This document shows positions 45,763 through 51,981 of a stretch of 64,000 bases of DNA, piece by piece. The translations under genes were made by a program, and so were the position numbers. How positions within the stretch are numbered: position 1 is the first letter of the stretch; each line of letters starts with the position of its first letter. This DNA is from Vicinamibacterales bacterium (GTDB lineage Bacteria; Acidobacteriota; Vicinamibacteria; Vicinamibacterales; 2-12-FULL-66-21): assembly GCA_035699745.1 (NCBI GenBank), contig DASSPH010000022.1, positions 1 to 64,000 of the forward strand, given 5' to 3'. The notes beneath the pieces are model-generated. The model worked only from the letters and a program-made list of their open reading frames with translations, did no database searches and was not told the DNA's origin.

Positions 45763-46100
45763 CGCCGCTGGTCAAAGGACTCGTCGTCGCTGCGCTGCAC
45801 GTCGCGCTCACCGCCAGCCTTGGCGCCAAGCTGTTGATCGACCGCGCCATGCGGCCGCGCGTGTGGGTTCAGGTGGTCCCGGTCGATCCCGACGATCCGC
45901 TGCGCGGGCGCTACGTGCGGCTCCGCGTCAAGGACGGCGACGAACAGCTGGCGTTCTTCATTCCGGAGCACATTCCCGACCCCTCGATCCGCGAACCGGG
46001 CGAAGAGCTGTGGGCGGAAGTGACGCTGCCGCGAAAGGGTCCGCCGCGGCCGATCCGGCTCGCGGTGAAGAAGGACGGTGTGCTGACCCCTCTCAGATAG
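45759..46100 (+). CDS. GDYXXLXY family protein
   Basis: A 113-residue protein with one N-terminal membrane helix and a periplasmic domain. The name motif appears as RGRYVRLRV rather than GDYxxLxY, in the context VDPDDPLRGRY typical of the family. The ATG overlaps the DUF2157 stop by 4 bp. It ends 12 bp before the ArsC/Spx-like gene and in the same reading frame, so the latter may be cotranscribed. Confidence 0.8.
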   Translation: MTPLVKGLVVAALHVALTASLGAKLLIDRAMRPRVWVQVVPVDPDDPLRGRYVRLRVKDGDEQLAFFIPEHIPDPSIREPGEELWAEVTLPRKGPPRPIRLAVKKDGVLTPLR

Positions 46101-46112
46101 GACAATAGGGGC

Positions 46113-46442
46113 ATGGCGAAGCCGGTCTTCTACACCAAACCCACCTGAACCACGTGCAGGAACGCCAGGAGTTTCCTGGACGAACGCAACATCGCCGTCG
46201 AGCAGATCGACATCAACAAGAACCCGCCGAGCCGCGCCTTCCTCGAGCAGCACGTCGACGCGCAGCGCTTCCTCGACTTCGTGAGCACGCGCAGTCCGGT
46301 GTTCAAAGCGCGGCCGCTGCCCGCGTCGAAGAAGGAGGCGATCGATTTGATGATGGAGAACCCGAACCTGATCAAGCGGCCCATCCTGGTTCGCGGTTCC
46401 AGAGCGACCTTCGGCTTCGACAAGACGGCGTATGGCGCGTGA
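46113..46442 (+). CDS. ArsC/Spx family thioredoxin-fold protein, predicted selenoprotein (in-frame TGA)
   Basis: Read through TGA at 46146-46148, this frame gives 109 residues: MAKPVFYTKPT-U-TTCRNARSFL and on to NPNLIKRPILV and FGFDKTAYGA, all hallmarks of the ArsC/Spx/YffB family. The TGA falls at the first Cys of the family CxxC (usual PTCTTCR), giving U-T-T-C, a selenocysteine-Cys redox pair. A hairpin (46165-46179) follows at the distance expected of a bacterial SECIS. The frame stays open and family-like for 97 codons after the TGA, so this is not an ordinary truncation. Alternatives are a Cys-to-stop mutation or sequencing error. The next gene overlaps by 11 bp. Confidence 0.8.
46165..46179 (+). 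promoter_or_regulatory. predicted bacterial SECIS element
   Basis: Perfect stem-loop CCAGGA-GTT-TCCTGG. The apical loop begins with G followed by U and lies 22 bases after the TGA codon, within the 16-37 base window and loop rule of the bacterial SECIS model. It would bind SelB to recode the UGA as selenocysteine. Confidence 0.7.
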
Positions 46443-47373
46443 GGGGCGCATCCGGGTCGGCACGTCCGGCTGGAGCTACCCGTCGGGCGAAGGCACCTGG
46501 AAGGGTGTCTTCTATCCCGAGAAGAAGCCGAAGGAGTTCAACGAGCTGACGTTCTACGCGGAGCACTTCGACACGGTCGAGGTGAACTCGACCTTCTACC
46601 GCATCCCGGCGGTCAAGACGGCTGAAGAATGGGCGAAGCGCACGCCGAAGGACTTCGAGTTCTCGCTCAAGCTGTTTCAGAAGTTCACCCATCCCGAGAT
46701 GTTCCTGAAGGCGACCGGCAGGGATCCGGCGGACGTCGATCGCAAGGACGTCGACGAGTTCCGCGCCGTGCTCGACCCGCTGGCGGGCGCCGGGAAGCTG
46801 GGCGCGCTGCTCGCGCAGTTCCCCGCCAGCTTCAAGAACGAACCGGGCTCGCGCGATTATCTCGCCTGGCTGCTGCACGCGTTCCGCGAATACGACGTCG
46901 CGGTCGAGCTGCGCCATCGGAGCTTCAGCGACGACCCTGGCGAGACGATGGATCTGCTCGCCGAGTACGGCGCGGCGCTGGTGCAGATCGACGAGCCCAA
47001 GTTCAAGACCTCGATCCGCCAGGACCGGCGCGCCAACGTCAAGACGTTCTTCTACCTGCGGCTCCACGGCCGCAATGCGGCGCAGTGGTGGACGCACGAC
47101 AAGTCGGAGGACCGCTACAACTATCTCTACTCGGAAGCGGAGCTGGAACCGTTCGTCGACGCGGCGGAAGAGGCGGTCGAGAAGGTGAAGAAGGCGTATC
47201 TCTACGCCAACAACCATTTCTCGGCGAAATCGGTCGCCAACGCCGCGACGATCAAGAACAAGCTCGGGCAGCCGCTCGACGGCGAGTACCCCGAGACGTT
47301 CGTGCGGCGCTACCCGGACCTGAAGGGACTGGTGAAGATCCTGCCGGCTACTCCTTCACCGAAGCTCGTTTGA
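46432..47373 (+). CDS. DUF72 family TIM-barrel protein
   Basis: A 313-residue protein of the DUF72 (YecE-like) family: GTSGWSYPSGEGTWKGVFYPE at the start, VEVNSTFYRIP, VAVELRHRSF and YFYLRLHG-type segment (FFYLRLHGR), ending YLYANNHFSAKSVANA. The fold is a TIM barrel that may bind metal, but no function is established. It overlaps the predicted selenoprotein gene by 11 bp and the convergent cyclophilin by 26 bp. Confidence 0.88.
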   Translation: MAREGRIRVGTSGWSYPSGEGTWKGVFYPEKKPKEFNELTFYAEHFDTVEVNSTFYRIPAVKTAEEWAKRTPKDFEFSLKLFQKFTHPEMFLKATGRDPADVDRKDVDEFRAVLDPLAGAGKLGALLAQFPASFKNEPGSRDYLAWLLHAFREYDVAVELRHRSFSDDPGETMDLLAEYGAALVQIDEPKFKTSIRQDRRANVKTFFYLRLHGRNAAQWWTHDKSEDRYNYLYSEAELEPFVDAAEEAVEKVKKAYLYANNHFSAKSVANAATIKNKLGQPLDGEYPETFVRRYPDLKGLVKILPATPSPKLV

Positions 47374-49487: not shown

Positions 49488-49706
49488 CTAATGGCCGTGC
49501 GTCTGGCAGTACCCGCAGTGGTTGCAGGCGACGCCCGGTTCGATGATGCAGGGGCCGTCCGAGGGCGGCAGCGCATATTGATAGCTGCTCGGATGCGGCG
49601 TCAGGTGAAGCAGGCGGGGCTCGTCCTGCACCACGGGGTCGCCGCCCCGCGCGGACACGCGGGCGATCGTCTCGCGGATGATCGAGCGCAGCGCGTCTTC
49701 GTTCAT
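49488..49706 (-). CDS. small microcompartment-locus protein with amphipathic N-helix and Cys/His tail
   Basis: A 72-residue protein of unknown function. The first 17 residues (MNEDALRSIIRETIARV) form an amphipathic helix like encapsulation peptides of microcompartment cargo, then a linker, then CNHCGYCQTHGH at the C-terminus, a compact Cys/His cluster that could bind Zn or an FeS centre. It overlaps the upstream pentamer gene by 4 bp. It could instead be the remnant N-terminus of a lost cargo enzyme, but the tail argues for a real small protein. Confidence 0.6.
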   Translation of the reverse strand: MNEDALRSIIRETIARVSARGGDPVVQDEPRLLHLTPHPSSYQYALPPSDGPCIIEPGVACNHCGYCQTHGH

Positions 49707-49975
49707 GCTCCCGTCTCCACCGCGTCGATGATGCCGATGATCGCCGCGTCCACCGCGGCCGCCTTCCTGCCGAGCGCCTGGCCGGCGGCCTTCCCTTCGA
49801 TCACGACCAGCACCCGCTCGCCCACGCCGGCCCCCACCGAATCGATCGCCAGCAGCGTCGTGCCGCGCGGCTGCCCCTCGAGCGACAGCGGCTGCACGAG
49901 CAACAGCTTCGCCCCTTCGAGCTTCCGGTTCTTCTGCGTCGCGACGACGGTCCCCACTACGCGGCAGATCTGCAT
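49703..49975 (-). CDS. BMC-P (EutN/CcmL) pentamer vertex protein 1
   Basis: A 90-residue EutN/CcmL family protein that caps the vertices of a microcompartment shell. The pattern MQICRVVGTVVATQKNRKLEG, LLAIDSVGAGVGERVLVV and AAIIGIIDAVE is diagnostic. It is the third of three adjacent pentamer genes and overlaps its neighbour by one base. Pairwise the three are clearly paralogues but differ in the loop after GERVLVV. Confidence 0.93.
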   Translation of the reverse strand: MQICRVVGTVVATQKNRKLEGAKLLLVQPLSLEGQPRGTTLLAIDSVGAGVGERVLVVIEGKAAGQALGRKAAAVDAAIIGIIDAVETGA

Positions 49976-50244
49976 CAGGATTCCGCGTTCCAGTGGTCGA
50001 CGATGCCGACGATCGAGGCGTCGGTCGGCGGCTCGACCGGATAGAACGGGAACGCGGCTTCGCGGCCGCGGACGAAGAACACGTTTTCACCGACGCCGGC
50101 GCCGACGGAATCGAGCGCGACCAGGGTGCGCCCGGCCGCCTCGCCGGCGGCGTTGAGCGGCTGCAGGACGAGCAGCTTGGTGCCCGTGAGGTTCGCGTCC
50201 TTGATCGTCGCCACCACTTCGCCGATCACCCTGGCGAGCTGCAC
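49975..50244 (-). CDS. BMC-P (EutN/CcmL) pentamer vertex protein 2
   Basis: An 89-residue EutN/CcmL protein (MQLARVIGEVVATIKDANL, VALDSVGAGVGENVFFV, ASIVGIVD). It differs from its neighbours by an aromatic insert (AAFPFYPVEPP) before the last strand, which may change the vertex surface. It follows the next pentamer gene by 1 bp. Confidence 0.93.
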   Translation of the reverse strand: MQLARVIGEVVATIKDANLTGTKLLVLQPLNAAGEAAGRTLVALDSVGAGVGENVFFVRGREAAFPFYPVEPPTDASIVGIVDHWNAES

Positions 50245-50245
50245 G

Positions 50246-50515
50246 TCAGTCCCTGACTTCGACGGCGTCGACGATGCCGACGATCGCGGCGTCCACGGGG
50301 CAGTCCTTGAGGCCGGCGGCCATGCGCGCCGAGCTGCCGCTGACGATCAGCACGGTTTCGCCGAAGCCGGCGTCGACGGTGTCGACGGCGACCAGGTAGT
50401 TCCCCTCGGCCTTGCCTGACGGATCGACGGGCCGCGCGACCAGGAGCTTGGAGCTGACCAACCGCTCGTCCTTCCGCGTCGCGACCACGGTCCCGACGAC
50501 CTTGGCGAGAATCAT
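50246..50515 (-). CDS. BMC-P (EutN/CcmL) pentamer vertex protein 3
   Basis: An 89-residue EutN/CcmL protein (MILAKVVGTVVATRKDERL, LVAVDTVDAGFGETVLIV, DAAIVGIVDAVE). It is first of the pentamer trio, 26 bp after the hexamer shell gene. Three pentamer paralogues per locus is the PVM-type microcompartment pattern. Confidence 0.93.
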   Translation of the reverse strand: MILAKVVGTVVATRKDERLVSSKLLVARPVDPSGKAEGNYLVAVDTVDAGFGETVLIVSGSSARMAAGLKDCPVDAAIVGIVDAVEVRD

Positions 50516-50541
50516 TTATTCGCGCAGCTCGCTCGCCGGCG

Positions 50542-50832
50542 TCACTTCGCGGCGGTGGCCTTGCCGATGGGCAGCGCGTCCTCGAGGTTCGCGTGCGGAC
50601 GAGGGATCACGTGCACCGACACCAGCTCGCCGACGCGCCGCGCCGCCGCCGCGCCGGCGTCGGTGGCCGCTTTCACGGCGGCGACATCGCCGCGCACGAT
50701 CGCGGTGACGTAGCCGGCGCCGATCTTCTCCCAGCCGACGAGCGTCACCTTGGCGGCCTTGACCATCGCGTCCGCCGCTTCGATCATCGCGACGAGACCC
50801 TTGGTCTCGACCATCCCTAGCGCTTCACCCAT
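50542..50832 (-). CDS. BMC-H hexameric shell protein
   Basis: A 96-residue single-BMC-domain shell protein: [34 protein letters not shown] at the start (shown in parts: LGMVETKG and AADAMVKAA), then [19 protein letters not shown] and SVHVIPRPH, as in EutM/PduA-type facets. It is the only hexamer gene in the window and no tandem-domain (BMC-T) gene is seen. A strong AGGAGAGAG precedes the ATG, matching the need for high shell expression, with a hairpin just upstream. Confidence 0.94.
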
Positions 50833-50846
50833 TACTCTCTCCTTGT

Positions 50847-50866
50847 CTTCCGGCCGACGCCGGAAG
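50847..50866 (-). promoter_or_regulatory. hairpin upstream of the BMC-H ribosome binding site
   Basis: A perfect 8-bp stem CTTCCGGC / GCCGGAAG with a 4-base loop lies in the 52-bp gap between the aldolase and hexamer genes, directly before AGGAGAGAG. It may protect the 3' side transcript or tune the shell-to-enzyme ratio. No T-run follows, so full termination is unlikely. Confidence 0.55.
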
Positions 50867-50884
50867 GCACCACGTACCGGTTTC

Positions 50885-51733
50885 TCACGCCGATGATCTG
50901 CCGATCTCCCGGACAGCCGCCTCGATCAACGCGGTCAGTTCCCGGTATGTTAGCCGAATTTCGCCGTCCTTACCCGCCGCGCCGGCGGCGTCGGCAACCA
51001 GCCGCGGGCCGTCGGTGTCCGGCGCGAACACCGTCTGGCAGTTCACCGAATCACCGAGCGCGGCGGAGTCCGGCTGACAGATCGGCGCCGGCGCCGCGAT
51101 CCCGTACATGCCGCGCAGCCCCTGCAGCCGATCGACCTCCTGCCGCGACAGCAGCCGCTCGCCGCCCAGCAGGCGGGCCACCAGGCTGATCTTGGCGAAG
51201 TGCTCGATCGTCTCCATCTTGTAGTACGCCGCGAAGACGTCGCCGCCGATCGTGAGCGCGCCATGATTCGCCAGCAGCATGCCGTCGTGCGCTTTCACGT
51301 ACTTGCGGACGGCCTCGGGCAGCTCCCTGGTGGACGGAGTCGCGTATTCCGCAATCGGCACGCTCCCCAGGGTCGTCACCACCTCGGCCAGCACCGCCCG
51401 ATCGAGCGGAATGCCGGCCACCGCGAAGCCGGTCGCGATCGGCGGATGCGCGTGGACGACCGCCCTGGCGTCCGGCCGCTGCCGGTACACCTCGAGGTGC
51501 ATCTGCATCTCGGACGACGGATCGCGCTCCCCTGCGAGCTTGCGCCCCTCGAGATCGGTGATGCACATCATCGCCGGCGTCATGAAGCCCTTGCAGACGC
51601 TCTTCGGCGTCATCAGCAGACGGCCGGCGTCGAGCCGGACGCTGATGTTGCCGTCGTTCGACGCGGTGTAGCCGCGGGCGTAGAGCCGGCGGCCCACCTC
51701 GACGATCGCGTCGCGCAGCTCCTGCTCGTTCAT
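50885..51733 (-). CDS. class II aldolase with microcompartment-targeting tail
   Basis: A 282-residue zinc aldolase of the fuculose/rhamnulose-phosphate type. Family motifs: [19 protein letters not shown] (base Glu), VVHAHPP (two zinc His) and ANHGALT (third His). The last 20 residues ([17 protein letters not shown]) form an amphipathic helix after a linker, like the encapsulation peptides of PVM-type cargo aldolases. It should release lactaldehyde or a related aldehyde inside the shell. It precedes the shell genes and overlaps the upstream small membrane gene by 4 bp. Confidence 0.88.
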
Positions 51734-51981
51734 TTGGCGAACTTCGCCTGGTAGGCGCGGCGGCACTGGTCGGAGCAGAAGAAGCGCATCTCGCTGCCGC
51801 TGCCGAACGACGGCGCGTTCGTCGGCGCGACGAAGGTGCCGCAGATCGGATCGCGCACCAGCGCGACCGCCTGCGGCGCCGACGCGGCGCCGCGGATCCC
51901 GTCGACGATGCCGCGGACCAGGCGCATCAGGGCGCGGATCACCAGGATCAGCAGTACCAGCTTGAGAATCCAGCCGGTCAT
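51730..51981 (-). CDS. small membrane protein with YHS/TRASH-like Cys motif
   Basis: An 83-residue protein with an N-terminal membrane helix (ILKLVLLILVIRALMRLV) and a cytosolic or periplasmic part with VRDPICGTFVAP and RFFCSDQCRRAYQ, the Cys pattern of YHS/TRASH-type metal-binding domains. It overlaps both neighbours by 4 bp. It is of a type common next to unrelated genes in Acidobacteria and Proteobacteria; its link to the shell genes is only positional. Confidence 0.7.
   Translation of the reverse strand: MTGWILKLVLLILVIRALMRLVRGIVDGIRGAASAPQAVALVRDPICGTFVAPTNAPSFGSGSEMRFFCSDQCRRAYQAKFAK

Follow-up and report, generated by a model that had tools for sequence, protein, structure and literature searches.

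A predicted ArsC/Spx-type selenoprotein with a UxxC site and a SECIS hairpin in a Vicinamibacterales genome

The stretch of DNA analysed here, hereafter called the window, comprises 64,000 nucleotides of a contig (DASSPH010000022.1) from a Vicinamibacterales bacterium in the phylum Acidobacteriota. The gene under study and the features that bear on it are collected in Table 1. Its open reading frame begins with an ATG at 46113, meets an in-frame TGA at codon 12, and then continues through 97 sense codons to a terminal TGA at 46440-46442. With the internal TGA read as U, the product is MAKPVFYTKPTUTTCRNARSFL...FGFDKTAYGA. It matches the Pfam family ArsC (PF03960) with 53.6 bits, over the cut-off of 24 (2.8e-14), and at E 0.001 it is the only PF03960 match in its own genome of 6.3 Mb. 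The initial annotation had described a frame that stays family-like for 97 codons up to a normal stop and had named the family ArsC/Spx. Both statements agree with the coordinates and the PF03960 match, and the name also with the Spx- and ArsC-type structures matched in the PDB (see below). An internal start at 46281 was tried and rejected, as its product would have 53 residues and no active site.

Table 1. Positions of the selenoprotein candidate, its key codons, its hairpin and its downstream neighbour in the window
Feature	Position	Strand	Basis or remark
ArsC/Spx-type gene, predicted selenoprotein, 109 residues plus stop	46113..46442	+	PF03960 match
UGA codon 12, putative Sec, first position of the UxxC site	46146..46148	+	orthologues in the order
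Cys15 codon TGC, presumed resolving Cys	46155..46157	+	invariant in 18-row alignment; role predicted
SECIS hairpin CCAGGA-GTT-TCCTGG	46165..46179	+	loop G at 46171; conserved with paired changes
Arg60 codon, aligns with Spx R60	46290..46292	+	invariant in 18-row alignment; role predicted
Arg89 codon, followed by Pro90; aligns with Spx R92	46377..46379	+	Arg89 invariant in 18-row alignment; role predicted
DUF72 gene (PF01904), conserved neighbour; start overlaps end of selenoprotein gene	46432..47373	+	

The more specific family models place the protein less simply. Against TIGR01617 (Spx/MgsR-like) it scores 75.0 bits at a cut-off of 75.05; among ten relatives scanned, L072, L073, L075, L114 and L116 reach this cut-off, and L078, L091, L098, L112 and L118 miss it. 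The arsenate reductase model TIGR00014 gives 43.8 bits, below its cut-off of 106.05, and the selenoprotein model NF041106 (ArsC_rel_Se_1) gives 27 bits, below its cut-off of 85, which is also reached by none of the ten relatives (nine at 20-38 bits, one without a listed score). Judged by these scores, the window protein belongs to a separate group near TIGR01617, and to neither TIGR00014 nor NF041106.

Regarding the distribution of the gene, some match is present in 58 of the 162 genomes of the order (60 match rows), the UGA form of the orthologue is present in 44, and a TGC form in one (G037). The codon at the Sec site could be read in 50 of the 60 rows, namely the 44 TGA orthologues, the TGC gene of G037, a UxxS gene of G141 and four distant TGC proteins; the other 10 rows, none of them listed with a stop, comprise two C-terminal fragments and eight remote matches. 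Counted by locus, TGA occurs in 29 of the 30 loci L013-L042, with 15 more TGA orthologues among 20 further loci, and UGA is found at the aligned site in further loci from outside the order as well. L071 was excluded throughout, its Sec site lying outside the coverage. Wherever the codon was read in relatives, the aligned site is UGA or Cys (TGC, or TGT in some), which confirms the earlier claim that the TGA stands at the first Cys position of the family. Because 44 genomes of the order share the UGA, a sequencing error is excluded, and the codon is a genuine TGA instead of a misread TGC.

The frame past this codon is constrained. In all 27 comparisons with the window gene (26 Sec genes and one Cys gene; 27 of the 29 loci L014-L042, L015 and L026 being excluded), dN/dS over codons 17-104 ranges from 0.12 to 0.38, and purifying selection acts on the frame downstream of the UGA. 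The nearest named acidobacterial loci are 67-81% identical to the window protein. Two members of these otherwise acidobacterial groups come from records with other titles, L070 (Acidimicrobiia, 67% identity) and L078 (Deltaproteobacteria, 41%), through either wrong labels or gene transfer. In G122 (L111/L147) a second in-frame stop, TAG, lies shortly 3' of the SECIS, which could mean that the copy has decayed or that the assembly is faulty there. Also in the same order, G141 has a distant ArsC-like gene (L153) with TGA in a UxxS motif, NPNUSTS, perhaps of the known UxxS type; a Pfam scan of one stretch of it, which may be in the wrong frame, found no match.

The hairpin occupies bases 17-31 after the UGA, with its loop G at base 23. 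The initial annotation was right about its location and loop G, and its conservation is confirmed below, but the weight it gave to this single sequence was too great. The 61-nt UGA context does not fold more stably than its shuffles (z -0.40), and of 50,000 sequences recoded synonymously, 4,937 form some stem of six or more pairs that has G in the first two loop bases; with GU fixed exactly at bases 23-24, the number falls to 54 of 200,000. Taken alone, therefore, the hairpin of the window is modest evidence, and comparative data are needed. What lifts it beyond chance is that UGA recurs in 44 of the 162 genomes and that the hairpin with G23 tracks UGA and not Cys. Among distinct Sec contexts, all 31 of the window's group and all 24 of a second group have G at base 23, and none of the 23 Cys contexts does. 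In 53 of these 55 Sec contexts of the two main groups, base 23 is surrounded by at least five perfect pairs; L035 has an interrupted hairpin and L080 a shorter one. Stems of at least five pairs stand at the same place in 7 of 23 Cys contexts, none with G23, and a looser hairpin count that ignores the position of G is passed by 54 of 58 TGA and 7 of 22 Cys contexts. Around base 23 of the TGC orthologue L041, no stem reaches five pairs.

Within the order, 29 sequences (27 distinct) form the six-pair stem in 97.5% of cells; one of the six pairs covaries, A-U (20) against G-C (7), with no break, three are invariant, and two deviate by unpaired cells only. The covariation score of this set is 0.133 against 0.142 for a slide by one column, and since the slide matches it, covariation in the 29 sequences alone is thin. 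In the 27 sequences of one register, the stem pair 21-27 is AU in 16 and GC in 11 and is never broken. The Arg codon within the stem is AGA or AGG in 29 of 30 loci, compared with 37 of 307 Arg codons elsewhere in the same reading frames, and the sole other one, CGG, belongs to the Cys gene L041. With loci from outside the order included, the bases of the stems differ widely, as in CCAGGA/TCCTGG, GCAAGA/TCTTGC, GCGAAG/CTTCGC and GGCTAGGA/TCCTAGCC, and the distinct stems are 22 in total, one of them from L114. This locus, together with L115, L116 and L119, belongs to a further ArsC-like Sec group in which G at base 23 is absent; L114 and L116 have a hairpin with loop GGTC closer to the UGA, that of L119 is weak, and none was found after the UGA of L115. 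L102, falsely aligned at the Sec site, was excluded from the hairpin and residue comparison. An Rfam search over 45900-46700 returned no SECIS match and one hit at chance level.

As to the decoding machinery, a search for selA, selB, selC and selD had been proposed with the initial annotation, and in the genome of the window all four factors score over their curated cut-offs: tRNA-Sec at 61.8 bits (cut-off 47; called tRNA-SeC by ARAGORN), SelB at 352 (242), SelA at 527 (268) and SelD at 347 (125). The selD gene itself (L136, 1495-2543, contig C71) contains one in-frame TGA, and reading it as Sec gives the N-terminus MRKLTDYSACAGUASK with the motif CAGUASK, so this SelD looks like a selenoprotein too. 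Over the order, the 44 UGA carriers have tRNA-Sec in 37 cases, SelB over cut-off in 37, and at least one of them in 41; the three with neither are G048, G086 and G125, with completeness of 74, 93 and 74%. The SelB tally of the order is 114 genomes, 113 of which entered the co-occurrence comparison; the 7 UGA carriers that lack SelB above the cut-off were each checked against the genome table. Carrier status is associated with the machinery over the 162 genomes (Fisher p 0.02 for tRNA-Sec, 0.005 for either factor). The association is nevertheless modest and gives weak support, since the machinery is also common where a gene of the window's type is missing, tRNA-Sec being present in 77 of the 118 non-carrier genomes.

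The selenoprotein reading is thus supported, with SelB and tRNA-Sec encoded in the genome, Cys found at the UGA position in homologues, and the TGA genuine. By the comparative genomics and the presence of all four factors, the UGA is almost certainly decoded as Sec, and that the window gene is a genuine selenoprotein of ArsC fold and redox type is a sequence-based reading to which we give a probability of roughly 0.85.

Two trees were built to place the window's group, both short, with 114 columns kept. In the first, of 94 rows, the group, made up of 37 Sec rows and one TGC gene (L066), forms one side of a branch with SH-aLRT 94, and nine Sec/Cys changes are needed over all rows. The second tree included six NF041106 members, with group labels counted instead of Sec/Cys changes; support for the window's group, here 31 Sec and 1 Cys, is 97, and a branch 3.6 changes per column long separates the six members. 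The second group (L072-L101 and L117), whose records are mainly from Bryobacterales and related acidobacteria, is set apart by one branch (99) in the first tree and is a grade in the second. Unresolved inner branches number 41 of 90 in the first tree and 36 of 77 in the second, and as the trees are short with so many unresolved forks, the number of Sec/Cys switches is uncertain. Mostly as repeats of the same genes or as fragments, L013-L042, L102, L104-L109, L111, L138, L140, L141 and L147-L152 were excluded from the first tree; the second additionally excluded L103, L112, L113, L121-L128 and L131-L133, and from L138-L157 it kept L144, L145 and L154-L156. Over the phylum, NF041106 scores over its cut-off in 27 of 396 genomes, each with one TGA. 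Given these genomes and the far position of NF041106 on the tree, the phylum holds at least two separate seleno-ArsC groups, of which the NF041106 model misses that of the window. The NF041106 selenoproteins L159-L164, from other families of the phylum, have a hairpin of their own after the UGA when inspected by eye, for example GCAGGAGTTTCTTGC.

The AlphaFold model of the window protein is confident, with a pLDDT of 93.7 and a pTM of 0.81. Its PDB fold matches are headed by Spx (3gfk, E 3.9e-9), with YffB (1rw1, TM 0.83), an ArsC-related chain (3gkx, TM 0.85) and ArsC (1i9d, TM 0.70) following, and the closest PDB chains by sequence are also Spx. Four positions, Cys/Sec12, C15, R60 and R89, are invariant in all 18 alignment rows, as would fit a selenolate that acts as nucleophile next to an anion pocket, together with a resolving thiol. 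In the mechanism that we propose, the hairpin would direct SelB and tRNA-Sec to insert Sec at the UGA; the selenolate of Sec12, near Arg60 and Arg89, would attack an oxidised substrate; Cys15 would resolve the intermediate as a selenenyl-sulfide, which a thiol system would then re-reduce; and the protein of the linked DUF72 gene may share the pathway in this order. Provided that Sec is inserted, a selenol-thiol oxidoreductase of this kind is the probable mechanism.

An alternative is a glutaredoxin-linked arsenate reductase in which Sec replaces Cys12. Family and fold are those of ArsC, and Arg60 and Arg89 presumably sit at the arginines of the ArsC anion site, which we counted in its favour. 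The TIGR00014 score, however, is far below the cut-off (43.8 against 106 bits), ars genes are 0 of the 5 neighbouring proteins scanned with Pfam, and the UxxC site has an invariant second Cys, so that we consider this function improbable.

Still less probable is a Sec-based redox sensor like Spx, in which a U12-C15 selenenyl-sulfide would switch binding to the alpha-CTD of RNA polymerase. It is suggested by the Spx chains that lead the PDB matches in sequence and, with 3gfk, in fold, by a TIGR01617 'Spx/MgsR' score of 75.0 bits against 75.05, and by the retained R60, whose counterpart is needed for Spx activation according to the accessible text of PMC2801614. The same text reports that Spx with Gly52 changed to Arg is completely impaired in activation, a defect that its authors tie to the contact with alpha-CTD. 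In the window protein, however, the equivalent of Gly52 is Arg52, and Gly occurs in none of the 18 rows (R 11, N 3, D 2, T 1, H 1; the alignment column has a gap close by). Furthermore, Spx K62 is an invariant Pro here, and the chain has 109 residues against 120-132 in the matched Spx chains. Spx-like regulation by the window protein is accordingly judged unlikely from the alignment, and with the Gly52 contact replaced by Arg52 the oxidoreductase is favoured over a regulator. Finally, a true stop, in a pseudogene or through sequencing error, might be read from a frame that is otherwise a normal CxxC protein with TGC or TGT at the site in some relatives, but it was rejected on the recurrence of UGA in 44 of 162 genomes and in loci outside the order, the purifying selection downstream, the G23 hairpin that accompanies UGA and not Cys, and the full Sec machinery in the genome.

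Among the known systems, NF041106 resembles the window protein in being ArsC-like, with an in-frame UGA, Sec first in UxxC and members in the same phylum; at the place where these members read NLRAP, however, the window protein has NLIKRP. With Spx (Bacillus, 1Z3E and 3GFK; TIGR01617) the window protein shares the fold, the position of CxxC/UxxC and R60, and it differs in the missing Gly52, the Pro at 62 and the shorter chain. The UxxS arsenate reductase likewise belongs to the ArsC family and carries Sec at its catalytic position, but it has UxxS where the window protein has UxxC, and the window protein stays below the TIGR00014 cut-off. If cd03032 is the Spx subfamily, as we assume, then a family named 'Arsenate reductase 2', compared here by its description, would share with the window's group the same ArsC branch as well as the UxxC motif.

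The available text of the 2008 ocean survey (PMC2398784) gives this 'Arsenate reductase 2' under cd03032 with UxxC and 42 sequences from ocean metagenomes, and it may include the window's group. Since a UxxC seleno-ArsC was tabulated there in 2008, the kind is already known, and the window's group is a new one within it. In the accessible parts of other surveys, the UxxS form of arsenate reductase appears as a selenoprotein in 2005 (PMC1088965), and an ArsC-like selenoprotein in Desulfotalea with a distant one in Desulfuromonas in 2006 (PMC1794560), where three selenoprotein families are also assigned to Acidobacteria, their names being absent from the text concerned. A 2026 inventory (PMC13188914) has two ArsC selenoproteins, TIGR00014 with UxxS and NF041106 with UxxC, and in its main text, as far as available, Spx, ArsC and Acidobacteri do not occur at word starts. 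The Deep-Sep paper (PMC12013277) has one acidobacterium in the accessible part of its list, and the words arsenate, ArsC and Spx are absent from it. Among the literature matches listed, most subscription papers being out of reach, no title concerns the window's selenoprotein group.

The results show that ArsC/Spx-type proteins with Sec are widespread in the phylum, in a group that NF041106 does not recognise, and because of this, ordinary annotation may truncate such genes at the UGA or miss them. A contrast set of Sec and Cys genes is gained as well, with the G23 hairpin beside UGA and none with G23 beside Cys.

The gene neighbourhood ties a tightly linked DUF72 gene to the redox selenoprotein; the assignment rests on the profile for the window gene and on the GTSGW motif for the loci of relatives. 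Among the 29 order loci (from L013-L042) whose downstream sequence reaches at least 400 nt, 25 show a DUF72-type GTSGW motif no more than 1.5 kb downstream; in 23 of them it is at most 60 nt from the stop, and the Cys version of the gene has the motif beside it as well. One might imagine that the acidobacterial Spx-type selenoproteins and DUF72 form a two-gene redox module in the order, in which Sec would serve as a fast redox sensor or the selenoprotein would repair the oxidised state of its partner DUF72, an idea that we regard as improbable. Upstream, on the opposite strand, a gene of a radical-SAM cluster (PF04055), which we take to be QueE, is found within three places in 22 of 29 loci (L043-L070 and the window), and in the window a DUF2157/GDYXXLXY pair stands between it and the selenoprotein gene. 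Pfam annotation of neighbours covers the window and one other locus; in 5 loci that do not belong to the window's group, the -1 neighbour falls in a cluster with a rhodanese gene (PF00581), as named from the Pfam scan of L092 only. The window also has bacterial microcompartment genes at 49706-51766 on the minus strand, namely three EutN/CcmL pentamers, a BMC shell protein and a class II aldolase, and in the loci of relatives EutN-type clusters lie beside the gene in 14 and BMC-type clusters in 11.
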